NCBI GenBank assembly: GCA_026391475.1
Contig: JAPLED010000086.1
Location: 1-37,258 of the forward strand
Length of the DNA stretch: 37,258 nucleotides
Direction: 5' to 3'
Origin: Bacteroidia bacterium
GTDB taxonomy: Bacteria > Bacteroidota > Bacteroidia > Bacteroidales > VadinHA17
Below, one piece after another: positions 15,485 through 33,812 of the stretch. The stretch's first letter is position 1; every line of letters begins with the position of its first letter. The translations under genes were made by a program, and so were the position numbers. The notes under the pieces were generated by a model. That model had not been told where the DNA came from. It saw only the letters and a program-made list of their open reading frames with translations, and made no database searches.

Positions 15485-15529
15485 AAACAAAGGTAACTGG
15501 CGGTAGCTTAAGGTAACGATCAAACAAAA

Positions 15530-15562
15530 AATAGAGGCAACCCAAACCGGGTTGCCTCTATT
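15530..15562 (-). terminator. rho-independent terminator, probably bidirectional
   Basis: Perfect 14-bp stem (15530-15543 with 15549-15562) with a 5-nt AAACC loop. On the minus strand it is followed by TTTTTTGTTTG, a proper U-run for the SusC operon that ends at 15586. On the plus strand a weaker T-rich stretch follows, so it may also stop the CNNM/CBS gene. Confidence 0.85.
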
Positions 15563-15585
15563 ATAATAAAACTTTTTATGATTAG

Positions 15586-16365: not shown

Positions 16366-16543
16366 ATCCCATTTAATTGCACTTGAGGCAGTACCTGCCC
16401 ATGCTAAATTTATAGCCTGGCCTGCACCGGTAAATGTATTGATTTTTTTTATTTTCAGTTAAATCTTTTAACTCTTTCCTATTAAGCTTAATTTAAATCA
16501 ATAACTACAATTTAAACCTGCCTGATAAAAAGAGTCAAACTTC

Positions 16544-17476
16544 TTATATTCTTGTTAAGACTTCATACATTATACGGTTACCTGCAGAGCTAACGTAATA
16601 ACAATTCAACACAAAAATCTTTGTAACAGGATTATAATAATTAATTTCCGTATTATTTGCAGGAGGAGCAGGAGGGGTTAGAGGATCTCCTGACCATGTA
16701 GTAAACATACCTTCGCCACCAGCTAAAGGAACACCGGTAGCCGGATCGATTACCCTCAGGTTACATTTATAACAAGTTACACCACCAACAACAATTGTAT
16801 TTGTAGTAATCTCAATTTTAATATCATACGGATAGTTTCCAAATCCGGATTTTATAACTGTTTTACAATCAACAGTAGAAACAGTTTGTGTAGCGTTAAC
16901 CGGCTCAGTAGCGTTACCCGGACGAATACGATAACCTACAGTATGGTAATCGCCTGCATATGGGTTAGATATTGGTAATGTCATTAGCCGTGATCCTGTA
17001 CTTACCGGATCAGCAGGAATAACACCACCTGTAGCTGAAACTATTGAAACAGGAGCCATGAAATTATCGCATGCATTCAACAGTTGGGCGTTCCATACTT
17101 TAACATAAGCATATGCATTTCTCGTTCCTTTTTCAATTACCACAGTGGGTGTGAGAACCTCAATATAAGGGTACAATTTAAAACTTGTTTTGTTAAGTCT
17201 GTTGTATCTGGCCCTTGCTGAGTCATTTACAGCCAGAGTAAGTGTTATGTTCTCTGTTGGCAGCTTATCGGAAGCAATATTGACCAGAAATTTGAATGTA
17301 ACAGGTGTAGCTACCGGTTGCAGTGCAAGAGTGGCTTTTCCCCCATTCCAAACTTCGGCATACATTTTCCCTTCAAGGGAACTTGTCCAATCCATCCCGA
17401 CGTCATCTTTCAGGCAAGCGTTAAAAACAAGAACCGCTGAAAGAAAGGATACTATTATTAAGATTTTTTTTCTCAT
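16544..17476 (-). CDS. DUF1735 (BT_3987-like) surface lipoprotein
   Basis: Likely an outer-membrane lipoprotein that helps the SusCD pair bind a glycan. From the ATG at 17476 the protein (310 aa) begins MRKKILIIVSFLSAVLVF followed by NAC, a lipoprotein signal peptide. An ATG eight codons earlier (17500) gives an unusually long n-region. The first half has the DUF1735 pattern (FKFLVNIASDKLPTENITL, then AVNDSARARYN), and a beta-rich domain with paired cysteines (CYKCNLRV) follows. DUF1735 also forms the N-terminus of Bacteroides endo-beta-N-acetylglucosaminidase BT_3987, but no glycosidase domain is fused here. It follows susD by about 44 bp in the same operon. Confidence 0.75.
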   Translation of the reverse strand: MRKKILIIVSFLSAVLVFNACLKDDVGMDWTSSLEGKMYAEVWNGGKATLALQPVATPVTFKFLVNIASDKLPTENITLTLAVNDSARARYNRLNKTSFKLYPYIEVLTPTVVIEKGTRNAYAYVKVWNAQLLNACDNFMAPVSIVSATGGVIPADPVSTGSRLMTLPISNPYAGDYHTVGYRIRPGNATEPVNATQTVSTVDCKTVIKSGFGNYPYDIKIEITTNTIVVGGVTCYKCNLRVIDPATGVPLAGGEGMFTTWSGDPLTPPAPPANNTEINYYNPVTKIFVLNCYYVSSAGNRIMYEVLTRI

Positions 17477-17520
17477 ATTATTTGATTTAAAATAGTTCAT
17501 AATTTATGGCACTTTCGATG

Positions 17521-19011
17521 TTACCGGTTCTGCCAGAAAATTTTTGAAGTATACAGATTGATTGTTCCCTGGAGAAGGACATTATCGTTATTAGTACTGA
17601 TCTCAGTCTGTGGATAGAGCAAACGAACAGGTGGTGTTGGATTCACCTTTTGGGGATCTGCTGACCAATGAATGAAATCTGGGTAACCTGTTCTTCTGTA
17701 ATCGGTCCATATAGGCATTGGGCTCAGACCATTTAATGCACACCATTTCTGGGTAAGGATTGTCTGCAATTTGTTTGGAGCAACATCAAAATTAACCAGA
17801 GGTTTAGCGGCCTGTGCCAGGTACGTTGCAGCATCGGCTGCAGTTCCCAGAGTTCCACCCTCATAAATAACAGACTGTGTTACAGCACTTTCATAAAATG
17901 TTTTTGCAGTACCTGCAATGAATCCTCTCTGAGCAGCTTCGGCCTGCAGGAAGAGACTTTCAATATCAGTCAGAATCGGAGCGTTCTGATTGAATGCTTT
18001 TAACATACCAGGACCAATTTTTGATGTATTAGGTACCGTTTGCAGCAACGTGGCTCCAAAATAATTACCTTGTATACTGCTTCCTGTATAAGCCTGAAAG
18101 AATCTGAGTTTACGCGGGTCGTTATTGGCGGTCACAAAATCGCAGGCATCCTGTCCTGCCACAAAATAACCAAGACCATCGGCCTGCTGTGAATTATCCT
18201 GCTTATAGAAACGCTCCCAGAATGGGTTCATTTTACCGGCTGATTGCAGATACCCGGGGTTAAGCCATGCTCCTTCACCTGCACCCATAAATCCTACTGT
18301 GGAAGTAGTCGCCAGAGCACTTGTAATATAAGAAGCTCTTCCGGTCATATCTGATTGATTCATTAAAATCCTGAGCTTAAGAGTATTGGCAAACTTTGCC
18401 CATTTTCCCATGTTACCCTGGAAGATAATGTCCTTAGCGCCAACCTCCTCAGCATCAGCAGGAGCTGTAGCTATAAGGTTCATAGCCGAATCAAGCTGAA
18501 CAACAAGGTTCTCATAAATAGTCTTTTGGTCATCGTATGCCGGTTTCAATATACCCTGATCTGTTTTCAGAGCTTGTGAATAGGGCACATTGCCATATGC
18601 ATCAACAAGGTTCTGATAGATATAAGCCTTCATGATCTTAGCAATTGCTCTGTAAGGCATCTGTTTAGCTCCTGTTGATGCCTTTTCAATATAGTCATAA
18701 TTATTAAGGTTAGTGTAGGAGTTACTCCAGTTGCCCTGGAAGTGACTATTCAGAAGGTTATACTGTGTCATATTAAGATCCTGGGAATAACCTCCGCTAA
18801 TTGACCAGCAACCATACCATTCATATATGAATGCATAATTGCCGGGAGTATTCACAAGTATTGAAGTATAATTGAGTGCTGCAGGCAAAATAAAGTTCGC
18901 CGGAACAGCTGATGCCTGGTTTGGGTTCTTTTCGTTTACACTAAGAAAATCTTTTTTGCAAGCGCTTCCCAAAACAAGCAATACAGTTAATAATATAAAT
19001 AATTTCTTCAT
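17521..19011 (-). CDS. SusD/RagB-family nutrient-binding lipoprotein (SusD-like_2)
   Basis: SusD homologues are lipoprotein lids that capture oligosaccharides or peptides at the cell surface and pass them to SusC. The 496-aa product has a lipobox signal peptide (MKKLFILLTVLLVLGSAC, Cys18). It then has the SusD-like_2 opening KNPNQASAVPANFILPAALNY and TPR-like helices (YRAIAKIMKAYIYQNLVDAYGNVPYSQAL). A C-terminal LFLQAEAAQRGFI helix follows. The stop is 44 bp before the DUF1735 start, and susC ends 19 bp upstream. The substrate is not evident. Confidence 0.93.
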   Translation of the reverse strand: MKKLFILLTVLLVLGSACKKDFLSVNEKNPNQASAVPANFILPAALNYTSILVNTPGNYAFIYEWYGCWSISGGYSQDLNMTQYNLLNSHFQGNWSNSYTNLNNYDYIEKASTGAKQMPYRAIAKIMKAYIYQNLVDAYGNVPYSQALKTDQGILKPAYDDQKTIYENLVVQLDSAMNLIATAPADAEEVGAKDIIFQGNMGKWAKFANTLKLRILMNQSDMTGRASYITSALATTSTVGFMGAGEGAWLNPGYLQSAGKMNPFWERFYKQDNSQQADGLGYFVAGQDACDFVTANNDPRKLRFFQAYTGSSIQGNYFGATLLQTVPNTSKIGPGMLKAFNQNAPILTDIESLFLQAEAAQRGFIAGTAKTFYESAVTQSVIYEGGTLGTAADAATYLAQAAKPLVNFDVAPNKLQTILTQKWCALNGLSPMPIWTDYRRTGYPDFIHWSADPQKVNPTPPVRLLYPQTEISTNNDNVLLQGTINLYTSKIFWQNR

Positions 19012-19030
19012 ATTTTTTTGTTTTAGCTAC

Positions 19031-22000
19031 TTAGAAAGTAAGTTTAACACTAAACCCGTAAATCCTTGTAGGAGGTGTCTGATATTCAGTTGTATAACCA
19101 ACAGCATTACTGGTTCCGGACCGTGTATTGAATTCAGGATCGGTCCATACATTTGATTTGGGACGCAACATAATCAGGTTTCTTCCTACAACACCTATCT
19201 GAGCACCTTTGATTTTGCCGCCAAGGATATTCTTAACAGGAACATCATAGCTAAGAGATACTTCTCTCAGTTTCCAGAAAGCGGCACTGGTTAAATATGT
19301 GCTATTAGTACTGTTAAGCGTACTGCCTGTCCACATAGCTCGTGAGGCGTTACGTGTAATTACGTTGGTATTGGTAACGTAGACCGGGTTAGCAGTAGTA
19401 CCGGTATTGATAACAGAATTTGGAATAACGAAGTTCTGACGTCCGTTCTGAGCTGAATGCCATGAAGTACCTGTGAAATCAAGGGAAGTACCGACAGCAT
19501 TCATAATTACGTTACCACTTCTGTAGTCAGCAACAACATTTAAGTTAAGACCTTTATAGCTAAGTGTATTGACGATGCCGAGAATATGATTCGGGTTACC
19601 GTGTCCCATTACTTTCAAAGCCGGGTCTCTTAATGGTAATCCTGTCTGTGCATCAACAACCAAGTGACCTTCAGGATCTCTTACAAAGTCAGTAACTTTG
19701 ATAGCAGGGAACTGCTCGCCGACTATTGCATAAGAAACATCTTGAATTGGTAATTCATTCAGGCCGGGAAGAATTGATAGTACCTTGCTTGTATTGTAAG
19801 TATAGCTGATAGTCATGTTCCAGTTAAAATCGCCAAGATCAAGAACCGGATTCAGTTTAAAGTCTGCCTCAAGACCTTTGTTTTCCAGTTCTCCTGCATT
19901 TATGTATGCACTGGCATACCCGGTGGCATATGATATTTGTGCAGGAATTGTCTGATCCTTCGTGTTTTGTTTATAGACATTAATATCGAGGCCAATTCTG
20001 CTTTTAAAGAAGCTTAATTCAATACCGGTTTCAATTTCCCGGGTGAGTTCAGGCTTCAGCAACGGATTGCTCAAAGTCGTGCTGAGCACATATCCGCCGT
20101 TAGATCCATATGGGAATCCTGCTCCGGTAGCAAATGAAGGCAGAGTTGCATACCAGTTTCCTAAAGAGATCTGACCTGTTTTTGACCAAGCGCCTCTGAT
20201 CTTTGCATATGATAGAACTGAGTTGTTTTTCAGAGAAGGAATTGCTTCTGTCAGTATTAAACTGGCATCAACTCCCGGGTAAAAGAATGAACGGTTGCTT
20301 TTTATCAATCTTGAATCCCAGTCATTTCTTGCCTGACCATGAAGGAAGAGGAATTCTTTGTACCCTATAGTAGCATCGGCAAAGAGACCCGTTGAATTAC
20401 GATTCTGTTGATCTTCAGTAACGCCGGGTTCACCAAGGCGATTACTTACGTTATATAAGAAAGGTATGACAACAGAATTATTTACAACCTGAACGTATCT
20501 GTATTTATTTGAATACATCGAGTTTCCAAGGATCAGTTTACCGGTGAAATCACCAATTTTATGATTCAGCTGGATCATAAAGTCACCTGAAAGGACGATT
20601 TGATTATAAATAGCATCATTAGCGATTCCTGCAAAGGGTGATCCGGTGGCATTATGTCCGGCCTGCCATGGATCTGTCACCATATATGAATTATATGCAA
20701 TCCCATCTCTGAAGAATGTAGAGTTAGTACCGGAATAAGTGATACCTGCACGATAAGAAATGTCAATCCATTTTGCTGGACTTAAAGAAAGAAGTGCAGA
20801 ACCAAGAAGATTATCGACCCTGGTATCATATCTCGAATATTTAGTCTGCCAGTAAGGGTTTGGATAATAAGCATTAAAATACCCGTTATTGTTTGCAAAC
20901 TTATTATTATCAACATCCTTATATGCGGTAAGATCAACCTGGGCAGGGGTATTCAATACGTTCCAATAAATCGGTCTCCCCTGGAATGGTTCAGTTCCGG
21001 ATGTACTTGTGTTTGTTTGTGTGTAACCCATGGTATAATCAGCATGGAAAATTCCGGTCGTTCTTGAACCGGCAACGCGAACACCTGTTCTTCTGTTCTT
21101 ATCGCCTGGAATAGTACCAGTAGTGTTTACATCCTGTGCAGAAAGATAAAAACTGTTGTCGTTATCTCCTACAGAGTATGAAATGTCATTCTGCGTTGAA
21201 ACCCCTGTGTTAAAAAATTTAAATTTCCCATTTGGTACAGCGCTGTACTTAACAGTCTGGTATGAACCGTCAACCAATACACCGCCAAGGATCACCTCCT
21301 GGCCGTTAAACTCAGGACCGTAGCTCTGGTTTTCATAAGATGTATAAGGATCTGTGTTACGGTCAGGTCCAATCCAGAATGTATAATTCGGAAGAGAGTT
21401 TATTGTATCTTCACCGGAACCTGAACCAAAACGAGTCTGAAGTTTTGGCAGATAAGAGATCTGTTCAAAAGTTGTGGTGTTACTTATTTTAATAACAGGT
21501 ACATTGCCAGAACCTCTCCTTGTGGTAACAATCAATACTCCGTTTGAAGCATCGTTACCATAAAGAGCTGAAGCACTTGATCCTTTCAGTACGTTAACAC
21601 TTGCAATGTCGTTAGGGTTTATCGAGTTAAGATAGGTTGCACTTACAGGGACTCCGTCAAGAACAACCAAAGCCTGGTTACTTGCCAGGAAGTGGCGGTT
21701 ACCTCTAAGAGTGATCCTTGTATCGGGGTTAACACCGTTGTTTACAGTGTTAATCTGCAAACCTGATACTTTGGCAGTCAAACCATTGACAACATTACTG
21801 ACGCCAGCCTGGGTAAGCTCTTTGTCTGATACTTTTTGAGTAGCAATACCTAGTTCTTTTGATGGCCTCTTAATTCCAAAAGCAGTTACAACAACCTCTT
21901 CCAGACCAAGGATGTCTGATTCCATAACACAATCAATTACAGTGCGACCTGCAATTTCAATCTCCTGCTTTTTCATCCCGATATAGGAGAAAATAAGAGT

Positions 22001-22210
22001 TGTTGCGTTCTGAGGTACAGTAATGGAGTATTTCCCGTTAACATCTGCAGAGGCACCTATTGTTGTGCCTTTAACCTGAACACTTACTCCAGGAATAGGA
22101 CCTTCCCCCTTAACTCCTGATGTAACTGTACCTGTAATGACTTTCGTCTGTGCGAATAGTATAGATATACCTAACACAAACAAAATAATCAACAGAGATA
22201 GTTTCTTCAT
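19031..22210 (-). CDS. SusC/RagA-family TonB-linked outer-membrane transporter
   Basis: The 1059-aa protein imports a ligand held by the SusD lid, driven by TonB-ExbBD. In order: a signal peptide (first ~20 residues to ILFAQ); a carboxypeptidase-regulatory-like beta domain (about 22-105); the SusC signature EEVVVTAFGIKR; a plug domain (about 115-235) with ALVVLDGVPV, NDIASVNVLKGSSASALYG and NGVLIVTTRRG; and a large barrel ending YGFSVKLTF with a terminal Phe. It is full length and uninterrupted. A promoter of the -33/-7 Bacteroidota type precedes it. No sigma/anti-sigma, hybrid two-component or SusR-like regulator lies beside it, so control must be remote or constitutive. Confidence 0.95.
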   Translation of the reverse strand: MKKLSLLIILFVLGISILFAQTKVITGTVTSGVKGEGPIPGVSVQVKGTTIGASADVNGKYSITVPQNATTLIFSYIGMKKQEIEIAGRTVIDCVMESDILGLEEVVVTAFGIKRPSKELGIATQKVSDKELTQAGVSNVVNGLTAKVSGLQINTVNNGVNPDTRITLRGNRHFLASNQALVVLDGVPVSATYLNSINPNDIASVNVLKGSSASALYGNDASNGVLIVTTRRGSGNVPVIKISNTTTFEQISYLPKLQTRFGSGSGEDTINSLPNYTFWIGPDRNTDPYTSYENQSYGPEFNGQEVILGGVLVDGSYQTVKYSAVPNGKFKFFNTGVSTQNDISYSVGDNDNSFYLSAQDVNTTGTIPGDKNRRTGVRVAGSRTTGIFHADYTMGYTQTNTSTSGTEPFQGRPIYWNVLNTPAQVDLTAYKDVDNNKFANNNGYFNAYYPNPYWQTKYSRYDTRVDNLLGSALLSLSPAKWIDISYRAGITYSGTNSTFFRDGIAYNSYMVTDPWQAGHNATGSPFAGIANDAIYNQIVLSGDFMIQLNHKIGDFTGKLILGNSMYSNKYRYVQVVNNSVVIPFLYNVSNRLGEPGVTEDQQNRNSTGLFADATIGYKEFLFLHGQARNDWDSRLIKSNRSFFYPGVDASLILTEAIPSLKNNSVLSYAKIRGAWSKTGQISLGNWYATLPSFATGAGFPYGSNGGYVLSTTLSNPLLKPELTREIETGIELSFFKSRIGLDINVYKQNTKDQTIPAQISYATGYASAYINAGELENKGLEADFKLNPVLDLGDFNWNMTISYTYNTSKVLSILPGLNELPIQDVSYAIVGEQFPAIKVTDFVRDPEGHLVVDAQTGLPLRDPALKVMGHGNPNHILGIVNTLSYKGLNLNVVADYRSGNVIMNAVGTSLDFTGTSWHSAQNGRQNFVIPNSVINTGTTANPVYVTNTNVITRNASRAMWTGSTLNSTNSTYLTSAAFWKLREVSLSYDVPVKNILGGKIKGAQIGVVGRNLIMLRPKSNVWTDPEFNTRSGTSNAVGYTTEYQTPPTRIYGFSVKLTF

Positions 22211-22243
22211 ACGAATTATATTTTAGGTTTTAGTTTATGGCGC

Positions 22244-22274
22244 TAAAGGTACTTTTTCTTTTTTAAAAAACAAA
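22244..22274 (-). promoter_or_regulatory. SusC operon promoter (-33/-7)
   Basis: The minus strand has TTTG (complement of 22271-22274), exactly 19 nt, then TACCTTTA (complement of 22244-22251). This matches the Bacteroidota consensus TTTG-N19-TAnnTTTG except for the last base. The 5' untranslated region would be about 25-30 nt. Confidence 0.65.
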
Positions 22275-22369
22275 ATTCAGAAAAAAAAAGAAACCTGCGC
22301 AGATTAATCCCTCAATGACCGGAAAAGTTGTGGTGAGTTATTAAAAACCATTCCCCCGGTTTTAAAGAG

Positions 22370-24190
22370 TTATTTTATCAGAAGTGGGATGCTGTAAAAT
22401 CCTGTTTCCCCGGCTGAGGATATCCCTTCAACAATAATTGTATAAACGCCTGATTCATCGGAGGTAAAAAACTCAATCGCCGCTTTGCCATCCCTTGTTG
22501 ATTTTAAATCGGGTTTCCAATAAAGAGTGTTACGAAAATCAGGTATACGGCTCTCTTTTAATGAATCGATACCGTAATCCGGGGAATAAAAATTGTATTG
22601 TGGTGTATATCCTTCGAATACCTGCTTGTATACAGAGTTGTCTGATTCAAGAGCGCTTAGATCTCCCTTTTTTGTAGTGAAACTCACTATACCATCAAAA
22701 ATGTAATCGGAGAAAAAGTACCGTCTGTTAATAATATCTATTCTTTCCATGTCCTTTGAATTGACATTTAATAAATTTTCAATACCATTAACCGGTACTC
22801 CATCGATCAGAATTAATGCCTGATTTTCAAATGGTTGATATGGATAACTATTTATGATCTTAAAACTATATTTCTTATTCCTTCTGATTATCATTATTTC
22901 GGGAAGAATCTCTTTAACTATCTCCCTGATATTTTTCAGTTCGATATAATCCGACATCTTTATCCTGCGGTCAGGTTTACCATAGAAGTCTCCTATTATA
23001 GCATGTATTGGAATTGTCGGTCCTTTTTGCCTGAAAGGCTCATAGATATTATTTATCTGCATGCTGATAACTGCATTATTTATGCTCTCTGTTTTACTGC
23101 TGTCGAGATAAAATATATCGGGTTTATTTTCATTGAAAGTACTACAGAATGGCTGGCTAAGCTCAACATAACTGTCTGACATCTCGCTGGACAATGGCTG
23201 AATTACCAGCTCACTAAAACCATTCTGCTCTCTTATAACAAAATTAAATTCTCCTTTGTCATTTGTTTTTACAAACTGACATCTGGCCGTTTTTCCAACA
23301 AAAGAGAGAGAGATATCGATGTTTTTCAGTGGTTCATTGGTTGTCTTATTTTTAATTATACCGCTTAATAATGGCCCCTCTATCTCTGGCAAATGATCCG
23401 GAATTGTTCCTGTAGAGTTTTTTATTGTATCCCTGTAACTCATAACATGCAGATTATCTAATCTGTATATTGGATTCATTCTATCTATGTTGAGCAGCTG
23501 AGGTTTGACCACAGATATTGATAAATCGGTTTCAACCGGATTTCCAGCCATATTAGTAACCGAAATATCAATTTTAACTTTTTCTCGTGTCAGATATTTA
23601 TCTTTCTGAGGTTCAACCTTTATGATAAGGTTGCTTCCATTTTCATTATTTATCAACCTTTCTGCTGCTTGAACTCCGGCTGGGGATGAAAAATCAGACC
23701 CAGTATTCTGTTCTTTGGAATGATTTATCAGCTTATCGATATTTTTAAAAGGATTAAGAATAGTAATAGTTTTATAAAAAAACAGATCTTCTGAATAATT
23801 AAGCATCCATTTTGTATAGGCACGAATTAAATAGTTGCCCGAACTTAATGTATCAGAGAGCCTGAATCCGGTAGACCCCGAGGTTCCTGTTATCCATATT
23901 TTTACCTGGTTAACAGGATTGTTTGTACTATCAAGCAATTCAATATAAGCAACTTTGCTCAAATCAGAGGGAGTATATGTAAGCCCGTTCATTTTATATA
24001 CTTTTAACCATACCTGTTCTCCTGTTATGTAGATATCACGGTCAGTATGAATAAAGAGTTTTTCCCGGTAGTTTTTTATCTTAAAAGAATCGATGTCCGC
24101 ATCAGATATTTGCGCAACGGCTTTACTACTTAACGAAATAAATAAAAATGAAAGTATAATTTGCCAGATGCGGATGTTATAGTTTTTCAT
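22370..24190 (-). CDS. barrel-less MG2/TonB-plug protein (606 aa)
   Basis: Secreted or periplasmic protein with a signal peptide (about 1-26, ending SSKAVAQ). Visible parts: an alpha-2-macroglobulin MG2-like domain (REKLFIHTDRDIYITGEQVW, about 42-150); a carboxypeptidase-regulatory-like domain (LLSGIIKNKTTNEPLKNIDI, about 270-345); a TonB plug-like domain (ALILIDGVPVNGIENLL, then DGIVSFTTKKGDL, about 440-515); and a beta domain (LYWKPDL...DGKAAIEF) at the C-terminus. There is no outer-membrane barrel, so it cannot be a classical transporter. The start codon overlaps the stop of the deleted DUF4249 gene (ATGA), which would couple translation. It is homologous in layout to the 1235-aa protein upstream. 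Function unknown; a scaffold or partner for DUF4249 lipoproteins is my guess. Confidence 0.75.
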   Translation of the reverse strand: MKNYNIRIWQIILSFLFISLSSKAVAQISDADIDSFKIKNYREKLFIHTDRDIYITGEQVWLKVYKMNGLTYTPSDLSKVAYIELLDSTNNPVNQVKIWITGTSGSTGFRLSDTLSSGNYLIRAYTKWMLNYSEDLFFYKTITILNPFKNIDKLINHSKEQNTGSDFSSPAGVQAAERLINNENGSNLIIKVEPQKDKYLTREKVKIDISVTNMAGNPVETDLSISVVKPQLLNIDRMNPIYRLDNLHVMSYRDTIKNSTGTIPDHLPEIEGPLLSGIIKNKTTNEPLKNIDISLSFVGKTARCQFVKTNDKGEFNFVIREQNGFSELVIQPLSSEMSDSYVELSQPFCSTFNENKPDIFYLDSSKTESINNAVISMQINNIYEPFRQKGPTIPIHAIIGDFYGKPDRRIKMSDYIELKNIREIVKEILPEIMIIRRNKKYSFKIINSYPYQPFENQALILIDGVPVNGIENLLNVNSKDMERIDIINRRYFFSDYIFDGIVSFTTKKGDLSALESDNSVYKQVFEGYTPQYNFYSPDYGIDSLKESRIPDFRNTLYWKPDLKSTRDGKAAIEFFTSDESGVYTIIVEGISSAGETGFYSIPLLIK

Positions 24191-24573
24191 AAGAATAATT
24201 CAGCCTGGTTTAAGTCGATCCAAAAATCAGGTTTAATTAAAGTCCCCGACAACTCACAATCCGAGCAAATTCGCGATGTAAAAACCACGCTGTTTGTTTT
24301 ATATAGCCCATCACCAAAATTTTGCAGAATAGTCTGATTTCCGATTTCATCAGTTATAGTCATATCAGCATCATTTACTTTCTCCGGAATTAAATCCTCC
24401 GCCTGCATTGTTCTTGACAATTTAACTTCATATGACGCCTTTTCGTCAGTGATCAGACCTTCAACCACCAGGAGAGATCCATAACCGCTCAATTTGGGTT
24501 TATAAGGATCGATACAGGTACAAAGCGCAATTACAATAAAAATGGTAATCAAAGACTTTGGTCTTGTTTTCAA
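24187..24573 (-). pseudogene. DUF4249 lipoprotein gene with internal in-frame deletion
   Basis: A 128-codon remnant of a gene paralogous to the one at 28820-30046. Its first ~100 codons match closely (for example ASYEVKLSRTMQA is identical). After VVFT it jumps straight to ICSDCELSGTLIKPDFWIDL, which matches the extreme C-terminus of the full gene (ICSDCELTGTLVKPEYWIDL). About 287 codons are thus missing without loss of frame. The start codon is also gone: the full gene begins ATG TTG AAA, this copy ATA TTG AAA, leaving only TTG. I infer a decaying gene. A short peptide initiated at TTG and coupled to the next gene by the ATGA overlap remains possible. Confidence 0.8.
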
Positions 24574-24690
24574 TATGCGTACGTTGTAAATATTTTCATC
24601 CTTTTAAACAAGCCACTTTAAATTGAAAAGCAAAAATAAAACAAATTAGATACCTTAAACTATTGGGCAGGAAGAAAATTTTAAAAATCA
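24574..24690 (-). repeat. promoter-bearing duplicated repeat, copy 1
   Basis: Closely matches 28662-28748 and 30047-30155. Shared landmarks include TCCTTTTAAACAAGCCACTT (with one extra C on the 28662 side differing), GAAAAGCAAAAATAAAACAA and TATTGG.CAGGAAGAAA. The minus strand carries a perfect -7 box TATTTTTG (complement of 24631-24638), about 58 nt before the lost DUF4249 start, so it is a promoter plus 5' leader. The stretch from 24691 to the stop at 24861 shows nothing recognisable. Confidence 0.85.
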
Positions 24691-24860
24691 GTACCTGTAA
24701 GTAAAGTGTAATTCTCCAGAAAAATTGGATAAGCGGTCTTAAAATCACTCGCATAGTGTTTTTCGTCCATTACTAGAAGAAATGGAAGTGATAGCCAAGA
24801 CTAGTCAGTCAAATCTCAGAGCCTCTTAATCCAAATCACCACCAAGTGTTATTTGATAAT

Positions 24861-27800
24861 TTAATAAACCCGATAACTTGCTCTTCCTGTTCCAACTAAG
24901 TTGTTGAATGATATACCATTAATGGTGATTAATGCCGGTCCGTGATGTTTAAGATTAATGTATTTAATTTTAACAGGCTCTTTCCCGTCAAAGTAAACTT
25001 CAGGATTCCAGAAAATCGTCGAACGGTTCTGAAGAGTTGGATCAATATCAATATCTGCTTTTGTCGGGCTATAAAATTCTATGTATGGGCGGTAAATACT
25101 TATGGGTAAAAGCATATTGTCCTTTTTATGCTGTAATTTCCAATCAGTACGAAGCTTCATAAAAGTCGGATCATTACTCATGGTATTAACAAAGATTACA
25201 CCCCCTTGTGCTGCTCCTCCATACCTGGCATATGCCTGGCTCCCCATGAGGACTGTAAGAGATGTTATTTCATTCGGAGAAGTCGATCTTACTGTCCGCC
25301 AGCCATCAGAGTATCGGGGCACTCCGTCAAGAACGATAAGTGCTGGAACAACACCTCCGAAAAGAGATCTAGGGGGGCGAAGGATTATATAGTCATCAGT
25401 CATCCGGTATGGACTAATCAATCTGCGTATTGCATCATCCAACGAAAAAGATGACCAGAGAAGTTCATAGTCAAGACTCCTGATATCTGCATATTGATAT
25501 GTTTCTTCATATTTGTCGTGGTATACTTTCTTATTTTCCGGATGTCCGATAATAATAACTTCAGGAATCGCTATTACGCTGTCTCCCAAAGTAATGTTAT
25601 AAGAACCAGGAGCGATAGTATAAACATTTAACGGGATTGTGGGTTGTGGTGTAAACAGTTCCTTGCTTTTAAAGTACTTTTCATTATAAGGAATACTTAA
25701 CATAGCCCCCAAAACTCTTTTTTTGTTTTCAGTGTTTGGCAGCATAGTTACAGATCGTGTGATTTCAGGAAGCGAATCTAACAGTAATGTAATATTTCCG
25801 GTTTTGTTTGTAAGCAGATGCTTTATTGATGGCCCCTCAAGTGAGATAAGATCCAATCTCCTGTCAGCGCGATTGTTCTTCAAAGCATATAATATTTTCA
25901 TATTCAGCATTTCATAGTTGAGAGGTTCTTTGCTAATTGTCTCTTTCTTACTAAAATCCCAATTAAATTTACTCCAGCCATAAACCATCAACAGTAAATC
26001 ACGCTCTTCATTTGTAAGATTTTCAAGCCCCTTAACCAATGCTTTGGGTGGCAGGTTGCCAGGAAAGTTTGGATGATAATTATAGGCATACTCAATTCCG
26101 GGGGTAAATATTTCTGCATTATGACCTGATATTGAGTCAGCAACAGCTATTGAGAAGATTCCTTCAACAGGATTTCCGGATCCATCGGTCACTGATATTG
26201 AAAGTTCAGTCTCCTGCCCGGGGGTATAAAAATCATTTTCAGAAGTGATGTTAAATTTAAGGTGTTTATCAGGATTTACATAAAACAACCGCTCTGCAAC
26301 CGGTCTCAGCTCTTTGTTGAAAAGTGTTATTTGTGCCACACCTGAAAGCAATTGATCTGTTTCTACCACGATACGCTGTTTCTTTTTTAGCGTAAGCTCC
26401 TGTGAAAAAATCTGGGTCATATTCATGGTACCGGAAACAAATACTGTTTCACCATTATAATTATTTGATTGAATTTCAACAGCAAATGATCTGTTATCTA
26501 TAGGCTTAACATCAAGGCATATTCCTGATTCAACCGGATCAGGTAATGGCCAGATTTTTTCTTTTCCTGCACCTTTTGTAAGCTCCACAAACATCCCGGG
26601 CTGAGGAGTATAGACAAAGAAGCCCGGACCATAAGCGCTTGATTTTATTGTATCAACAAAAAATCCATTACTGCTTTTTAATAACCCCTCAACATGTACA
26701 GATTCTCCTTTAATATTTGTAGCATTAAAGCCTATTCTTTGTTCCAGACCTGCAACTAAAGTACCTCCTTCCGGTAAAAATCTTAAATCGAGATATTGGT
26801 CATTAAAAGGAATTTTGAAATCCCTTTTGACAGATTCTTTATTCGTATTCTTTTTAGTGATAATCTGTAATTTGGGTTGAATACTAATTGTGTCGGGTAT
26901 TGTAAATCTGATGACAGATTCTCCCTTTGTGTTTGTACGAGTCTCATTGGTTTCAATAGAATAATTGTCAGTTGTCAAACTGTATTGAAATTTCTGCTGA
27001 CTTTTTGGTTCACCCTTTGCATCAGTAATTTTAATAACTGCTTCAAGAGTATCTCCAGGCTGATAATTCTCCTGGTCAAATGTTATTTCAACTTTCTCAG
27101 GATCATCGTCTTTTGCCTTAACATATAAATCGAGTTGAAATGCATCCATCGGATCAAAATTCTGCATCATACCGGTAAAAGCAATAAAGTGATATTTTCC
27201 AAATCCTGCATTAGCTGGAATAGTCATCCATCCTGATGAAGTGGAGTTTTCAATTTTAAACCTGGAACTGTCAATCATCTTCTGTTCATCATTATAAAGA
27301 ATGGCATATAATGAGACACTATTTGACTCAAAAATGTTGGTAAATCTATCCCTGATATATGCCTGAAATCGGATTGTATCACCCGGTTTATACATGTTTC
27401 TATCAATATGAACGAAAACCTGATCTTTACTTTTAGAGTTTTGTTGGGCAAGCAGATATTTTTCAATTGGTGATATGTCCTTGTTAATATCGGCCACATC
27501 TTTTCCTATTGCATAAGGCAGGAAATCAAAAGGAAGCATATCTGCAATCCTTTCGTTAGCCATTTCTCCGCCCCATGTTATAGAATACGGGGTATCAAAA
27601 AAACCATTTTGATAAACATTTAATGTATCAGAAAAAAGCATTGTACTTATAAATTTATGAGGTTGAAAACCAGTAAGACCGGTAGCTAGCTCCGCATGGT
27701 TGTCTGTATAGCCTATCAATAATGGATTATTATAATACAAAGTCATGTAATTGCTGTTATATGATAACCTGAGATCATTTCCAGGAATTAGCTTAATTAT

Positions 27801-28568
27801 AGATAACTCTTTGGTAACAGTATCTATTTTACCTTCAAATATTTGGAAATTCTCCTGATATAGGGAGTCTGAAAAAAGTGCCCTGAAAAGATGCATTCTT
27901 GAACCGTAATAAGCAGATAATCTGTTTCGTGCCCACCTTTTACTATCTCTTGGTGCACCTGTTAATGGTTGAAAATAATGGTTGCCTTTAAACTTTAAAA
28001 ATTCGGTTTCAAGGTTATAACTAAAATCTGACAAATCGTAAATTATTATGTATCCTAAAGCCCTGTTTTCTATTCGCAGTGGTTTAAGTGAAAAACCGGT
28101 TAGAGTCTTATTCTGAGCATTTCTATATAGATGGAGATCCTCTGGATTGACAATTTTGCAGTCTTGAGAGTTAATTGTTTCGCCAAGGAATAGCTTAACA
28201 AATTGAGTATAGTTTGTCAGCCGGTTTTTATCTTTAGATTTAACAGTAACCTCCTTCAATAGAAAAAAATTTACTGAAAGCTTTATGTCGATTTTCTGCT
28301 TTTTCCCCTCCGCAGAGATAAATTGTGAATGGGATTTATATCCGATACAAGATGTAATCATTTCATACACCCCATCCCGTGAAATAGTTAATGAATAAAC
28401 ACCTTCGGCATCTGTCAAAACACCAAAGGTTGTTTTTGATAAATAAACAGATGCAGAAGGGATAGGCTTATTCAATGAATCCGTTACAACTCCTGTTATA
28501 GTGGTCTGTGCATTAAGGTTGTAACTTAAAATAATAAACAGGACAGTGAAAAAGACGCTTAGTCTCAT
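24861..28568 (-). CDS. barrel-less carboxypeptidase-regulatory/MG2/TonB-plug protein (1235 aa)
   Basis: Exported protein with a signal peptide (about 1-21, ending YNLNAQ). In order: a carboxypeptidase-regulatory-like domain (TTITGVVTDSLNKPIPSASV, about 22-105); a ~260-residue region with RNRLSAYYGSRMHLFRALFS, seen in many large Bacteroidota surface proteins; an MG2-like domain (DQVFVHIDRNMYKPGDTIRF, about 375-480); and further macroglobulin-like beta domains (LRFLPEGGTLVAGLEQRIGF). Near the C-terminus is a plug-like domain (ALIVLDGVPRYSDGWRTV and AQGGVIFVNTMS, about 1065-1150), followed by a beta domain resembling that of the 606-aa protein (IFWNPEVYFDGKEPVKI). No barrel follows. Its leader contains a DUF4249 fragment and copy 2 of the promoter repeat. 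The role is unknown. Confidence 0.75.
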   Translation of the reverse strand: MRLSVFFTVLFIILSYNLNAQTTITGVVTDSLNKPIPSASVYLSKTTFGVLTDAEGVYSLTISRDGVYEMITSCIGYKSHSQFISAEGKKQKIDIKLSVNFFLLKEVTVKSKDKNRLTNYTQFVKLFLGETINSQDCKIVNPEDLHLYRNAQNKTLTGFSLKPLRIENRALGYIIIYDLSDFSYNLETEFLKFKGNHYFQPLTGAPRDSKRWARNRLSAYYGSRMHLFRALFSDSLYQENFQIFEGKIDTVTKELSIIKLIPGNDLRLSYNSNYMTLYYNNPLLIGYTDNHAELATGLTGFQPHKFISTMLFSDTLNVYQNGFFDTPYSITWGGEMANERIADMLPFDFLPYAIGKDVADINKDISPIEKYLLAQQNSKSKDQVFVHIDRNMYKPGDTIRFQAYIRDRFTNIFESNSVSLYAILYNDEQKMIDSSRFKIENSTSSGWMTIPANAGFGKYHFIAFTGMMQNFDPMDAFQLDLYVKAKDDDPEKVEITFDQENYQPGDTLEAVIKITDAKGEPKSQQKFQYSLTTDNYSIETNETRTNTKGESVIRFTIPDTISIQPKLQIITKKNTNKESVKRDFKIPFNDQYLDLRFLPEGGTLVAGLEQRIGFNATNIKGESVHVEGLLKSSNGFFVDTIKSSAYGPGFFVYTPQPGMFVELTKGAGKEKIWPLPDPVESGICLDVKPIDNRSFAVEIQSNNYNGETVFVSGTMNMTQIFSQELTLKKKQRIVVETDQLLSGVAQITLFNKELRPVAERLFYVNPDKHLKFNITSENDFYTPGQETELSISVTDGSGNPVEGIFSIAVADSISGHNAEIFTPGIEYAYNYHPNFPGNLPPKALVKGLENLTNEERDLLLMVYGWSKFNWDFSKKETISKEPLNYEMLNMKILYALKNNRADRRLDLISLEGPSIKHLLTNKTGNITLLLDSLPEITRSVTMLPNTENKKRVLGAMLSIPYNEKYFKSKELFTPQPTIPLNVYTIAPGSYNITLGDSVIAIPEVIIIGHPENKKVYHDKYEETYQYADIRSLDYELLWSSFSLDDAIRRLISPYRMTDDYIILRPPRSLFGGVVPALIVLDGVPRYSDGWRTVRSTSPNEITSLTVLMGSQAYARYGGAAQGGVIFVNTMSNDPTFMKLRTDWKLQHKKDNMLLPISIYRPYIEFYSPTKADIDIDPTLQNRSTIFWNPEVYFDGKEPVKIKYINLKHHGPALITINGISFNNLVGTGRASYRVY

Positions 28569-28581
28569 GGTTTAATTTTTT

Positions 28582-28660
28582 GATTTCCTCTCTTTCATTC
28601 GAATCAAGATAAATTCTTATCCCGCTCTGAGTTTTGCTCTGGTTGTCAGAAAATTTCTCA
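28582..28660 (-). pseudogene. DUF4249 gene fragment (about codons 141-167)
   Basis: On the minus strand this stretch translates to EKFSDNQSKTQSGIRIYLDS. The intact DUF4249 protein has EEFTNNQSETHEGIRIYLDS at residues 141-160. DNA identity includes 23 consecutive bases (28598-28620 with 29565-29587). The fragment has no start codon and lies between repeat copy 2 and the 1235-aa gene. Everything before codon ~141 and after codon ~167 is gone. It now forms part of the 5' leader of the downstream gene. Confidence 0.8.
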
Positions 28661-28661
28661 C

Positions 28662-28748
28662 CCTTTTAAACAAGCCACTTAAAATTGAAAAGCAAAAATA
28701 AAACAAATTAGATGCCTTAAACTATTGGCCAGGAAGAAAATTTTAAAA
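28662..28748 (-). repeat. promoter-bearing duplicated repeat, copy 2
   Basis: About 87 bp closely matching the repeats at 24574-24690 and 30047-30155, including the -7 box TATTTTTG (complement of 28693-28700). It shares CCTTAAACTATTGG with copy 1 where copy 3 has CCATTGATTATTGG, so copies 1 and 2 are closer to each other. It would drive the 1235-aa gene. Confidence 0.85.
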
Positions 28749-28819
28749 CCCGGTTTCCACCATTAAAGCATGGCGTTCCAGACCCGGAAAAAAAATTTAT
28801 TCTGTTTGAATATTCTCTT

Positions 28820-30046
28820 CTACTTCAAGTCGATCCAGTATTCGGGTTTCACAAGTGTTCCGGTCAACTCGCAATCGGAGCAAATGCCTGTTGCAAAGAC
28901 CAGTTTACGAAGTTTCCTTGTTACAGGATCATAAAAAGGTTCAATAAAAATAAATTTAGCATCAGACCACATTTTGTATAATTCGTCCCATGTAGGTGGA
29001 ACACAGAATTGACAAGCATAGTCCTCCGGAGCAGTTTCAATTCTGGCACAACCATAATGGAATAGAGGAAGATTAAGTTTTGTCAACTCCATAAATGTTA
29101 TATCTTTTCTTTTTTGACTTACAGCCGAGACCTGAAAATACCCCAAAACTCTTTCATAGGGATTATGTACATTAGAAATATTGCAGATCACAGGGAAAGG
29201 TTGTGAACCAAAAATATCGCCGCTACTTTCATTCACCTTTTTCAAATTATCCCAAAATTGGGACTCCTTATCTGAAATAGAATATTGCTTAACCAAAATG
29301 CTGTATTGGATTGTCAGGCGATCTGATTGATCAGATCCGATAAAGTTAAGAGGCACATTCTTAATAAAACCGGCCTGTTCGGGGGGAAATGATTGAATTA
29401 ATATTTCCTTTGATCTCTTCTGCTTCCAGCAAAATTCCTTTACAACATCAACCGGCAAAATTGTCGAGTCATTGATAAAATTAAATTTTTTGAGTGTTGG
29501 TAACCTGAATTTCCATGTTTCCTCATATCCCCATCTGAAATAGTTATTGATTCCATCTCCCTCTTTCGAATCAAGATAAATTCTTATTCCCTCATGAGTC
29601 TCGCTCTGGTTATTGGTAAATTCCTCAGCTTTTTCGAAATATAGACTGTCAATCTCAGGGACAGGCAGCATCGTGCATGGCTCAGATTGATAATCTTTGC
29701 CATTGAGAGTAGCTATATGCAATATATAAGTTTTCCCGGCAGCGCCGGTAAAAACCGTACTATCTGTTTTATATAATCCGTTACCAAAATTCCGGAGCAT
29801 GGTTTTATTTCCGCTTTCATCTGTAATAGATAGGACAGCGTCAGATACTTTTTCCGGAATTGAATTCTGTGCCTGCATCGTTCTGGACAATTTAACTTCG
29901 TATGATGCATTTTCATTGGTGAGCAGACCGTCAACCACAAGAAGGGATTCATATCCCTTTAATTCAGGGATATATGGATCTATACATGTACAAAGTGCAA
30001 ATACAATAAAAATTGTAATGAGAGGTTTTGGTCTTGTTTTCAACAT
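28820..30046 (-). CDS. DUF4249 family lipoprotein, intact copy
   Basis: The 408-aa protein begins with a lipoprotein-like signal peptide (ITIFIVFALCTC, probable lipid Cys21) followed by IDPYIPELKGYESLLVVDGLLT, the typical DUF4249 opening. Ig-like beta segments follow (AVLSITDESGNKTMLRNFG, then AGKTYILHIATLNGK). There are conserved Cys and Trp residues near the end (CQFCVPPTWDELYKMW, CSDCELTGTL). DUF4249 proteins are usually encoded next to TonB-dependent receptors and are thought to be surface lipoproteins. Here the receptor gene is divergent (31032). The ATG at 30046 lies about 50 nt after the TATTTTTG box of repeat copy 3. It is the only undamaged DUF4249 gene of the three in the window. 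Confidence 0.88.
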   Translation of the reverse strand: MLKTRPKPLITIFIVFALCTCIDPYIPELKGYESLLVVDGLLTNENASYEVKLSRTMQAQNSIPEKVSDAVLSITDESGNKTMLRNFGNGLYKTDSTVFTGAAGKTYILHIATLNGKDYQSEPCTMLPVPEIDSLYFEKAEEFTNNQSETHEGIRIYLDSKEGDGINNYFRWGYEETWKFRLPTLKKFNFINDSTILPVDVVKEFCWKQKRSKEILIQSFPPEQAGFIKNVPLNFIGSDQSDRLTIQYSILVKQYSISDKESQFWDNLKKVNESSGDIFGSQPFPVICNISNVHNPYERVLGYFQVSAVSQKRKDITFMELTKLNLPLFHYGCARIETAPEDYACQFCVPPTWDELYKMWSDAKFIFIEPFYDPVTRKLRKLVFATGICSDCELTGTLVKPEYWIDLK

Positions 30047-30155
30047 GTGTTCGTTATAAATATTTTCATCCTTTTAAACAAGCCACTTTAAATTGAAAAG
30101 CAAAAATAAAACAAATTAGATACCATTGATTATTGGGCAGGAAGAAACTTTATAA
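30047..30155 (-). repeat. promoter-bearing duplicated repeat, copy 3
   Basis: Upstream region of the intact DUF4249 gene, matching repeat copies 1 and 2 over roughly 90-105 bp. The -7 box TATTTTTG is the complement of 30101-30108. Similarity to copy 1 continues into the coding region, so the duplicated unit included promoter, leader and gene. Confidence 0.85.
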
Positions 30156-30231
30156 AAATAAAATTAAATTAATCTTATCCGGTTATGGACAATTTATTAA
30201 TTTGGTAAATTAAAAAAGCACCTATTTCTTA

Positions 30232-31035
30232 ATGATGAAATTCATATATCCACCTTTATTCTTATTGTTATCTATCCATTGTTCAGGGCAGGTTTTTGAT
30301 CAGCAAAAAAAATATCCAAACGGAGATACGAACAAAAAAAATGATCTGCAATTTGTAACACTCCAGACAGATTATATCACCAAGCTTTACTACCAGGTAA
30401 TTGCAACTCCGAAAGATATTATTAATGGAAAGGAATGTCTGCCGTACTCTTTCAGAAGCAAAACGACTCCAATGTTTTATTCCAGGGAAAAACTTAATGC
30501 AACTTTAAATGTCAATAACAGGCTATATAAAAATATCAAATTACAGTATGATACCTTCAAGGATGATCTCATATATATCGATACAAACAGAATAATTAAT
30601 TTTGAATTCCCCAGGATAGCGCTAAATAAGGATATTATTGAAGGATTCAGTTTATATATTAATGGTGACATTATTAATTTCAAGCATTTAAGGTTCCCGG
30701 AAAGCTCAGACAAAAAACTTGTGGATGGTTTCTATGAAGTAGTTTATGAAGGGTCGTCAACACGGTTTATAATTAAACACCGTTCAACTCTTTACAATAA
30801 AGAGGGATTAAATGAATATAAGTATTCACCTGAAAGATATGTTTCAATAGGAGAAAAATATTATAAAATAAGAAATAAGAAGAACTTTATATTGATGTTC
30901 GGGAATCATTCACAGGAAATTAAAGAGTTTTTGCGTAAAGCAGAAATAAGGATAAAAAAAGCCGGGAAAGATCAGATTATTGAAGTATTAAAGTATTATG
31001 ATTCGCTAAAAGAATCAGGAAGGTTAACAAGATGA
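30232..31035 (+). CDS. exported protein of unknown function preceding a TonB receptor
   Basis: The 267-aa protein has a signal peptide (about 1-20, FLLLSIHCSGQ) and a beta-rich body. The segments NNRLYKNIKLQYDTFKDDLIYI, ENINGD-like turns and GFYEVVYEGSSTRFIIKHR recall an unnamed Bacteroidota family of periplasmic proteins. A C-terminal helical part (LRKAEIRIKKAGKDQIIEVL) follows. I do not recognise a function. Its stop overlaps the ATG of the next gene (ATGA), so it is translated with the receptor and probably works with it. The ATG sits just after TATTTCTT (30223-30230), an imperfect -7 box with TTTG 18 nt upstream. Confidence 0.7.
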   Translation: MMKFIYPPLFLLLSIHCSGQVFDQQKKYPNGDTNKKNDLQFVTLQTDYITKLYYQVIATPKDIINGKECLPYSFRSKTTPMFYSREKLNATLNVNNRLYKNIKLQYDTFKDDLIYIDTNRIINFEFPRIALNKDIIEGFSLYINGDIINFKHLRFPESSDKKLVDGFYEVVYEGSSTRFIIKHRSTLYNKEGLNEYKYSPERYVSIGEKYYKIRNKKNFILMFGNHSQEIKEFLRKAEIRIKKAGKDQIIEVLKYYDSLKESGRLTR

Positions 31036-33812
31036 AGAAATTTCCCTTAATAGTCCTTATCTTATTTGCATCATGCCATCTTTTTGCACAGGAGAAAAAA
31101 TTATCTCTCCAGTTCAGCCATATATTATTTAAAGAGCTTGCTGATACCATTGAGAAAACTATTCCTGTAAAAATCTATTATTCAAACAATTGGGTTGATA
31201 GTCTTTATCTCAACATACATGTAAACAATGACTCGATAACAAGTCTGTTTGACAGATCATTGGAAAATACCGGATTCTTCTTCATCATAACCGATAAAAA
31301 TAAGGTTATACTTTCAAAAGGGTTCCGCATCAAAACCAACTTTAGCAAAGAATATACTGAACAACTGAAAAAGAAAGCAATCCAGCCCGATACAATTCAA
31401 TATTTTCAACTACCCCCGGAAAACAAGGAAACGTCTATAAATGACGAGTTCAAAATATTTAAAATAGGAAATCCTTCAGCATTAAAAAATGGCGGAACTG
31501 CTTATATTTCAGGCACTTTAATAAATTCCATTACAGATGAACCTCTTCCCGGGGTAATTGTATATGTTGAAAAGCTGAAAGTAGGTGCAATTTCAAATTC
31601 AGTTGGTTATTATACGCTGGAATTGCCTAAAGGTCAATATCAAATTGAGTACAGAATGGTAGGGTTAAAACCGGTTAAAAGAAATATAGTACTATATTCC
31701 AACGGAGCACTCGATGTAGGAATGGTTCAAAGTACAAAACAGCTGGATGAGGTATTTGTTTCAGCCAATAAAGAAAACAAAGTTCAGGATGTAAAAATGG
31801 GTATCGAAAAAATCAGCATGAAGATGATAAAACAGATACCGATGGGAATGGGAGAAGCCGACCTGTTTAAAAGTTCATTATTATTGCCAGGTGTTCAATC
31901 GGTAGGTGAAGCTTCGAACGGTTTTAATATCCGGGGAGGAAGCATCGATCAGAATCTGATCTTGTTCGATGGCGCTCCTATTATAAATCCATCTCATTTT
32001 TTTGGTTTTTTCTCTTCATTCAATTCAGATATAATTGAAGATGTCACTCTCTATAAAAGTGGGATCCCGGCTAAATACGGAGGAAGAGTTTCGTCGGTTA
32101 TGGATATTTCACTTAAAAAAGGCTCCAGGGAAAAAGTTAATATTAGCGGGGGCATAAGTCCTTTTACCGGAAGATTAATGGTTGAAGCACCAATCTTAAA
32201 GAAGAGCAGCTCATTCATACTAAGCGCAAGGACTACATATTCGGACTGGATACTCGGATTAATGAAAGATAAACGCCTTCAAAAAAGCAATGCAGATTTT
32301 AATGATATCCAGGGATTGGTAACCTTCGATATTAATCCTAAAAACTCCGTTTCTGTTTCGGGATATTTAAGTAATGACAGCTTCGACTATTTTAAAGAGT
32401 ATGGTATCAGATACATGAACTTATCATCAACCATTAAGTGGAATCATACTTATAATACAAAGCTCTCTTCACAGTTTGCTGGAATATTAAGCAACTATGC
32501 TTATGAGATCGACTCAAAACAAGATTCAGTATCATTTAATTCACTGAATTATAAGCTGAACCAACGCATTCTCAGATCCGATTTCACATACTTCCCTGCT
32601 GAAAAACATAAAGTTGAATTCGGATTAAATGCAACTAATTATTCATTATCTCCCGGCACCCAAAAGCCTATCGGCGAATTTTCCCAAATTTTGCCAAAAT
32701 CTCTTGAGAATGAACAAGCTTTTGAATCTTCAATATATTTAAGTGATGAGTTTGAATATTCACCAAGACTACTGTTTTCAGGTGGCCTCAGATTCACTTT
32801 ATTTACTCCTTTTGGACCTAAAACAGAATATCTCTATTATCCTAACACTCCCAGGTCGCTGGAAAATATTTCAGATACTCTATTATACAGGAAAGGGCAA
32901 ATTATACGAGTCTATCCGGGATTGGAATTCAGGCTTTTATCCCGGTATATAATTACCCCTGATTTGTCTGTAAAAGCCGGAATTCAGCGTAATTTCCAAT
33001 ATATTAACATGATCTCCAATACCACATCGATGTCGCCGACCGATATCTGGAAATTAAGCGATAACTATATAAACCCACAAAGAGGAGACCAGTTTTCATT
33101 GGGGATATATAAAAACTTCAGAAGCAAAGCAATAGAAACATCTGTTGAAGTTTATTACAAGATATTAAAAAATATCCTCGACTATAAAGGTGGAGCCACC
33201 CTGCTCATGAATGATCATCTTGAGACAGATATTCTGAATGGTAAAGGGAAAGCTTACGGGATTGAGCTTATGGTTAAAAAACAAATCGGGATATTAACAG
33301 GCTGGATAAGTTATACTTATTCACGGTCATTGCTCAAAATTGACGGATTATTTGAAGAAGAGAAAGTTAACGGAGGGAGATATTTCCCGGCAAATTTTGA
33401 TAAGCCACATGATTTAAAGATTGTATCTAATATCAAATTATCAAGAAGATTAAACTTTACAACAAATCTTATATATAACACCGGCCGTCCTATAACTTAT
33501 CCGGTTGCTTATTTTAATTTTTATAATGTATCGAGAGTTTTTTATTCAGATAGGAATGAATTCAGGATACCCGACTATCTCAGACTTGATTTTTCAGCCA
33601 CAATGAACGGAAACCTAAAATTCAAAAAATTAAGTCACTCCGCATTAACTTTTACTGTTTATAATGTTCTTGGCCGGCGAAATCCTTATTCAATATTTTT
33701 TAAAGTTGAGGATGGTATTGTTAACGGTTATCAAATGTCGATTTTCGGCCAACCAATAATTATGCTTACTTACAGCTTCAGGATTCGGGGAAATGCATCA
33801 AATGATTTATAA
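31032..33812 (+). CDS. TonB-dependent receptor with STN-like N-terminus
   Basis: The 926-aa outer-membrane receptor has a signal peptide (about 1-20, ending HLFAQ). Next is an STN-like domain (FKELADTIEKTIPVKIYYSN, about 25-98), which in FecA-type receptors can signal to an anti-sigma factor. Then come a carboxypeptidase-regulatory-like domain (ISGTLINSITDEPLPGVIVY, about 158-245), a plug (GFNIRGGSIDQNLILFDGAP, about 255-370) and a barrel. No FecR or ECF sigma gene is visible beside it. It lies divergent from the intact DUF4249 gene, its usual partner type, and overlaps the 267-aa gene by 4 bp. The ligand is unknown. Confidence 0.9.
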   Translation: MKKFPLIVLILFASCHLFAQEKKLSLQFSHILFKELADTIEKTIPVKIYYSNNWVDSLYLNIHVNNDSITSLFDRSLENTGFFFIITDKNKVILSKGFRIKTNFSKEYTEQLKKKAIQPDTIQYFQLPPENKETSINDEFKIFKIGNPSALKNGGTAYISGTLINSITDEPLPGVIVYVEKLKVGAISNSVGYYTLELPKGQYQIEYRMVGLKPVKRNIVLYSNGALDVGMVQSTKQLDEVFVSANKENKVQDVKMGIEKISMKMIKQIPMGMGEADLFKSSLLLPGVQSVGEASNGFNIRGGSIDQNLILFDGAPIINPSHFFGFFSSFNSDIIEDVTLYKSGIPAKYGGRVSSVMDISLKKGSREKVNISGGISPFTGRLMVEAPILKKSSSFILSARTTYSDWILGLMKDKRLQKSNADFNDIQGLVTFDINPKNSVSVSGYLSNDSFDYFKEYGIRYMNLSSTIKWNHTYNTKLSSQFAGILSNYAYEIDSKQDSVSFNSLNYKLNQRILRSDFTYFPAEKHKVEFGLNATNYSLSPGTQKPIGEFSQILPKSLENEQAFESSIYLSDEFEYSPRLLFSGGLRFTLFTPFGPKTEYLYYPNTPRSLENISDTLLYRKGQIIRVYPGLEFRLLSRYIITPDLSVKAGIQRNFQYINMISNTTSMSPTDIWKLSDNYINPQRGDQFSLGIYKNFRSKAIETSVEVYYKILKNILDYKGGATLLMNDHLETDILNGKGKAYGIELMVKKQIGILTGWISYTYSRSLLKIDGLFEEEKVNGGRYFPANFDKPHDLKIVSNIKLSRRLNFTTNLIYNTGRPITYPVAYFNFYNVSRVFYSDRNEFRIPDYLRLDFSATMNGNLKFKKLSHSALTFTVYNVLGRRNPYSIFFKVEDGIVNGYQMSIFGQPIIMLTYSFRIRGNASNDL

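Follow-up and report, generated by a model that had tools for sequence, protein, structure and literature searches.

How does one promoter come to stand three times in a single receptor locus, each time ahead of sequence for a DUF4249 lipoprotein, when one of the three genes is intact, one is a scrap and one is deleted internally, and two different plug proteins follow the damaged copies? The question is raised by a 37,258-nucleotide stretch of DNA (the window; GenBank assembly GCA_026391475.1, contig JAPLED010000086.1) from an uncultured Bacteroidales bacterium, in which the locus is known from a single contig of a metagenome-assembled genome (MAG) and from sequence alone. That contig, C96, is part of a MAG-like draft genome of 2.8 Mb, 133 contigs and 97.9% completeness. 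The locus is probably the outcome of a lineage-specific remodelling of the DUF4249 arm of a widespread receptor/DUF4249/plug module, with a captured plug gene. Sequence comparison shows that the DUF4249 gene and its promoter were tandemly duplicated in this lineage; that one copy, c2, was cut to its promoter, its leader and a scrap, with a plug gene from outside the module clade now behind it; that another, c1, which precedes the native plug gene, is missing about 285 codons in frame and keeps its 5' end and its 3' end with a 4-nt overlap to that gene; and that the three promoter/leader blocks resemble one another far more closely than do the coding parts behind them. The features concerned are given below, where c1, c2 and c3 are the three repeat-led DUF4249 copies; G-labels denote genomes of the genus and L-labels fetched loci.

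30057..30124, minus strand: c3 promoter/leader block, 68 nt, identical to 24587-24654, with a -7-like TATTTTTG at 30101-30108
28820..30046, minus strand: c3, intact DUF4249 lipoprotein gene, 408 residues (PF14054, E 1.6e-38)
28650..28748, minus strand: c2 promoter/leader repeat, with a -7-like box at 28693-28700
28577..28667, minus strand: c2 DUF4249 scrap, 91 nt or about 30 codons, corresponding to approximately residues 138-167 of c3
24861..28568, minus strand: 1235-residue protein with Pfam CarboxypepD_reg and MG2 matches and a plug-like region, no barrel being recognised
24588..24686, minus strand: c1 promoter/leader repeat, with a -7-like box at 24631-24638
24187..24573, minus strand: c1, in-frame deleted DUF4249, 128 codons, TTG start, overlapping the next ATG by 4 nt
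22370..24190, minus strand: native module plug protein, 606 residues, with MG2, CarboxypepD_reg-like and plug-like Pfam matches, all below cut-off

A sequence-only reading of this DNA had described three copies of one promoter-bearing repeat, each ahead of DUF4249 sequence, and self-comparison agrees (88-93% identity). The copies form a 99-nt family, D2, at 24588-24686, 28650-28748 and 30058-30156 on the minus strand, in which the second and third, aligned in register, each have 93% identity with the first, and those of c2 and c3 are 88% identical. The 2.8-Mb draft genome contains just these three strong matches, the next best having an E-value of 0.04. The layout described behind each repeat was likewise recovered: the c3 repeat leads an intact gene for 408 residues, whose stop codon lies 71 nt from the c2 repeat with no plug gene between; the c2 repeat leads a 91-nt match to the middle of c3 and then the 1235-residue plug protein; and the c1 repeat leads the internally deleted gene and then the 606-residue plug protein. 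The promoters are matched, as had also been proposed, with the 68-nt block identical in c1 and c3 and two changes in its first 54 positions in c2. At the putative -7 position all three match in sequence TAnnTTTG, the consensus of the primary sigma factor of Bacteroidota in an excerpt of a published account (PMC7366714). A TANNTTTG box lies 40-75 nt upstream of the start in 15 of the 17 DUF4249 copies of the genus (0.71 expected), all but G006_1 and G011b. Such a layout would give three separate transcription units under the same input, namely DUF4249 alone, the captured plug protein alone and the native plug protein.

Both c3 (133.3 bits) and c1 (30.9 bits), the two copies scanned, exceed the PF14054 gathering score of 28.5 bits. 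In a tree of DUF4249 proteins c1 and c3 are sisters with support of 97/95, c1 occupying just 30% of the columns, and they are 74% identical in their common N-terminal part. The AlphaFold2 model of c3 has a mean predicted local distance difference test score (pLDDT) of 89.1. No fold in the PDB matches it at E<=0.001, the best match (1.2e-3) and others having low TM-scores and many being antibody-like, and a search of PDB sequences for relatives of DUF4249 yielded none, only two chance-level matches (E 0.44 and 0.47). The c2 scrap aligns with positions 29544-29634 of c3 with 20 mismatches in 91 positions. The c2 leader passes straight into the scrap, which stops 8 nt short of the ATG of the 1235-residue gene; by eye, its DUF4249 frame contains no ATG, GTG or TTG, and the junction is A-rich and briefly resembles the sequence on either side. 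To judge from the sequence, the 5' leader of the 1235-residue gene now includes the scrap.

The promoters and the coding parts of c1 and c3 differ in their apparent age. Over 122 common codons the synonymous divergence (pS) is 0.58, the nonsynonymous divergence (pN) 0.13 and omega 0.13 (bootstrap 0.06-0.24), whereas the 83-nt promoter/leader is 94% identical and includes the 68 identical bases, a run that appeared in none of 20,000 shuffles of 77 mismatches over 413 columns. Seven further DUF4249 pairs, each from a single genome, have pS values of 0.23-0.66 and leader identities of 46-69%: the pair in G032 (a/b) has a pS of 0.47 and a leader identity of 52%, and six pairs in G006 span the whole of both ranges, pairs with G006_1 giving no leader value. 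Because the bodies of c1 and c3 have diverged while their promoter/leaders are nearly identical, unlike those of sister tandem copies, the block would either postdate the divergence of the coding parts or be under constraint in this lineage alone. Homogenisation of the three blocks by gene conversion or unequal crossing-over is favoured, although not proven. The strongest alternative, possible but distinctly the less probable, is that the 68-nt block binds a regulator or acts at the RNA level, is strongly constrained in this lineage and owes nothing to conversion. All three genes keep the block, the 1235-residue gene included, and the -7-like box recurs in those 15 of 17 copies, as such constraint would have it; yet four G006/G032 pairs that are less diverged than c1 and c3 (pS 0.23-0.49) have leaders that are just 48-69% identical, an Rfam scan of 22000-31000 returned no match, and the folding of the c3 leader is not unusual (z -0.57). 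A structured leader RNA was rejected on these last two results.

Two further candidate elements were rejected or set aside. A pattern scan for a terminator after each unit gave 6 matches versus 5.1 expected and 0 in the two gaps between units; hairpins are present in plain folding of these gaps, made without control folds. At 30040-30069 and 24570-24599 on the minus strand, and in the leaders of G008, G001, G032b and G006_5, a short ATG-started frame of 8-10 codons runs with its stop codon into the start region of DUF4249. A conserved short upstream open reading frame over the DUF4249 start, at 9 of 28 leaders versus 4.4 expected, is too weak to carry a claim.

The c1 gene retains codons 2-100 and 386-408 of c3, and its junction, by eye, carries a TTTAC/TTTGC-like short repeat common to both sides. 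At the position of the c3 ATG c1 has ATA, so that the closest codon able to serve as a start is the TTG that follows. Since DUF4249 and plug genes are -4 to +12 nt apart in all ten modules of the genus, translation of the plug gene would stay coupled after an in-frame deletion that spares the two ends, and the native plug protein may be translated by coupling to the leftover short c1 frame. The survival of c1 is consistent, at the level of sequence, with a role in translational coupling of the 606-residue gene. All 14 invariant columns still contained in c1 are kept, and at the 90% conservation level 3 of 37 columns are broken, the same as in c3; these conserved columns probably reflect a trace of a long constrained past. 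It is doubtful that c1 encodes a working mini-lipoprotein, in which function would account for the retained lipobox region, N-terminal strands and C-terminal CxxC tail. An open frame, the low omega and the retained columns speak for such a protein, but c1 lacks strands 106-112 and 118-121 of the c3 model, which appear to close the N-terminal domain, and has lost the ATG. Four non-lipid cysteines, C206, C333, C389 and C392, are invariant in a 53-row alignment; c3 has all four, and c1 is without C206 and C333. The AlphaFold2 model of c1 is also poor, with a pLDDT of 67.2 and a predicted template modelling score (pTM) of 0.43.

The surroundings of the array can be compared with those in other genomes of the genus, for which the following neighbours are required.

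17521-22210: SusC/SusD pair adjoining the locus
30232..31035, plus strand: divergent gene, 267 residues, no Pfam match at E 0.01, kept beside the receptor
31032..33812, plus strand: TonB-dependent receptor of the module, 926 residues, 64-72% identity in eight sister genomes

A close DUF4249 is encoded in 10 of 36 genomes of the genus, the present one included (at least 49% identity; at least 47% by BLAST). Eight sister genomes have it next to an orthologue of the 926-residue receptor, in divergent orientation to the receptor and the 267-residue gene; the contig of the ninth, G008, is too short to show the receptor. The 267-residue family adjoins the receptor in 8 of 8 sister loci in which the receptor is visible. 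Each of the nine sister genomes has one plug gene of approximately 590-800 residues directly after a DUF4249. The number of DUF4249 genes per locus is one in G001, G009, G012 and G019, two in G032 and G011 (in opposite orientations in G011), at least two in G008, three in G003 and five in G006, where the copies on contig C18 are spaced and four have the -7-like box. In these arrays DUF4249 is repeated, and the single plug gene comes after the final copy or, in G003, stands within the array, with one DUF4249 before it and two after. The sequence-only reading had named close relatives as a place to look for one-, two- or three-unit versions; what is duplicated in the sister species is the promoter with DUF4249, in up to five copies, and not a promoter-DUF4249-plug unit. 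The present genome has two more receptor-DUF4249-plug modules, on contigs C26 and C85.

Across Bacteroidota the comparison covers the best 80 of 561 loci, four of which are the same contigs as genus loci; genes were linked within 1.5 kb, and the counts take in loci cut by contig ends. One DUF4249 is present in 55 of these loci, two to eight in 18 and none recognised in 7, and plug open reading frames number one in 73, none in 4 and two in 3; among the last, L112 and L147 each look like one split gene and L123 looks like two neighbouring modules. Within these 80 loci, modules not cut by a contig end contain no DUF4249 under 300 residues, and none of the loci has a further intact plug gene joined to one module within 1.5 kb. 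In relatives the locus is a module made up of a TonB-dependent receptor, one or more DUF4249 genes in tandem and usually one MG2/plug gene. The window has a receptor next to DUF4249 and a barrel-less MG2/plug gene, that for 606 residues, at -4 nt after c1. It resembles the tandem DUF4249 arrays in G006 (C18), L111 and L155 in the recurrent growth of its lipoprotein part, and differs from the tandem arrays of the named loci in having a short DUF4249 (c1) and a second intact plug gene. The tandem copies beside the receptor number six in L111 (Imperialibacter; 14498-21567) and eight in L155 (3939-12833), the last cut by the contig end.

The two plug proteins of the window are not each other's closest relatives. 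In a tree of 33 MG2/plug proteins, 23 module plugs and 10 other proteins fall into two groups split with support of 100/100; the 606-residue protein falls within the module group, and the 1235-residue protein in the other, beside proteins from G003 and G011 (94/93). The 1235-residue protein matches the SusC/RagA plug signature TIGR04057 at 1.2e-3, under the model's cut-off, and direct comparison with the 606-residue protein yields separate short pieces of 21-35% identity. No DUF4249 was found in the DNA seen near 11 fetched relatives of its gene (nine tree members, L194 and L195), of which L073 offers 3.1 kb and L090 has just 138 bp upstream of the gene. Its orthologues in G003 and G011 are 53-54% identical over the full length and lie just before nuoE-nuoF-hydA-like hydrogenase genes, in G003 between an LVIVD-repeat gene and the hydrogenase cluster (L086:3050-6538) and in G011 between a HAD-like gene and the cluster (L087:7263-10808). 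Among ten genomes searched at this hydrogenase site, the plug gene is present in two and the site is empty in seven, the present genome included; G006 is undecided, as its contig starts there. From a position outside the module clade, relatives with no DUF4249 nearby and orthologues at a hydrogenase cluster, we infer that the 1235-residue gene was captured into the array from elsewhere, behind a spare promoter. The gap at 24691-24860 has no homology to the flanks of the orthologues. In G019 the N-terminal and MG2/plug relatives are adjacent separate genes of 816 and 342 residues (L088:6453-8903 and 8914-9942), suggesting gene fusion or fission; in the same genome the hydA-like gene (L193:7268-8829) is broken into two frames and also shows one TGA, possibly a sequencing error.

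That a whole promoter-DUF4249-plug unit was duplicated twice and its lipoproteins pruned, leaving one lipoprotein for two plugs, is very unlikely: three matched promoters, three DUF4249 remains in order and distantly related plugs (the module-plug profile covers most of the MG2/plug part of the 1235-residue protein) accord with it, but it is largely contradicted by the plug tree, by the direct alignment, in which the plugs are far more diverged than c1 and c3, and by sister arrays that repeat DUF4249 without a plug. In the history that the sequence-only reading proposed, lineage-specific duplication of DUF4249 and the cutting down of two copies are supported, and duplication of the unit with its plug gene is not.

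Several observations weigh against DUF4249 duplication followed by capture. Everything comes from one MAG contig of a single assembly. No shared flanks mark a move of the 1235-residue gene, and loss in sister genomes is an alternative; in G019 a member of its group lies on the same contig as the module, approximately 20 kb away, and G006:C18 has a second plug-type gene of 833 residues (L192:8281-10782) approximately 4.5 kb beyond the module plug. The likeness of the promoter/leaders could come from local constraint in place of gene conversion, and the omega of c1 together with its 14 retained invariant columns might indicate a short protein that is still functional.

SusC/SusD systems combine a TonB-linked receptor with a lipoprotein partner, and the window is similar in this respect, although c3 matches PF14054 only and not SusD. 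A literature search found no account of the present arrangement, and DUF4249 itself is mentioned in one of the papers searched. A closer parallel by description, not by receptor alignment, is the TonB-dependent transporter BT2172 and the DUF4249 protein BT2173 of Bacteroides thetaiotaomicron, disruption of either of which has similar consequences according to an excerpt of the published account (PMC11003636); the excerpt is silent on plug partners, tandem arrays and promoter copies. By analogy with this pair, c3 most likely serves the neighbouring receptor as its lipoprotein partner, alongside the 606-residue protein. That c3 also serves the 1235-residue protein, one lipoprotein for two plugs, is mildly disfavoured, since relatives of the latter gene have no DUF4249 nearby. 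The 1235-residue protein would gain co-expression with the locus and not necessarily a DUF4249 partner.

The points worth following are one promoter over three diverged units and a captured gene. If remodelling proceeded as proposed, one route to rewiring a receptor locus may be to duplicate a promoter with its gene, lose the gene and keep the promoter for a newcomer. As a tentative and rather improbable generalisation, tandem lipoprotein arrays beside TonB-dependent receptors might act as promoter banks, in which spare copies are kept alike by conversion, foreign plug-domain genes are brought under locus control and gutted lipoprotein frames are kept only as translational couplers. The layout of the locus also lends itself to testing which of the two, the DUF4249 protein or the plug protein, pairs specifically with the receptor.

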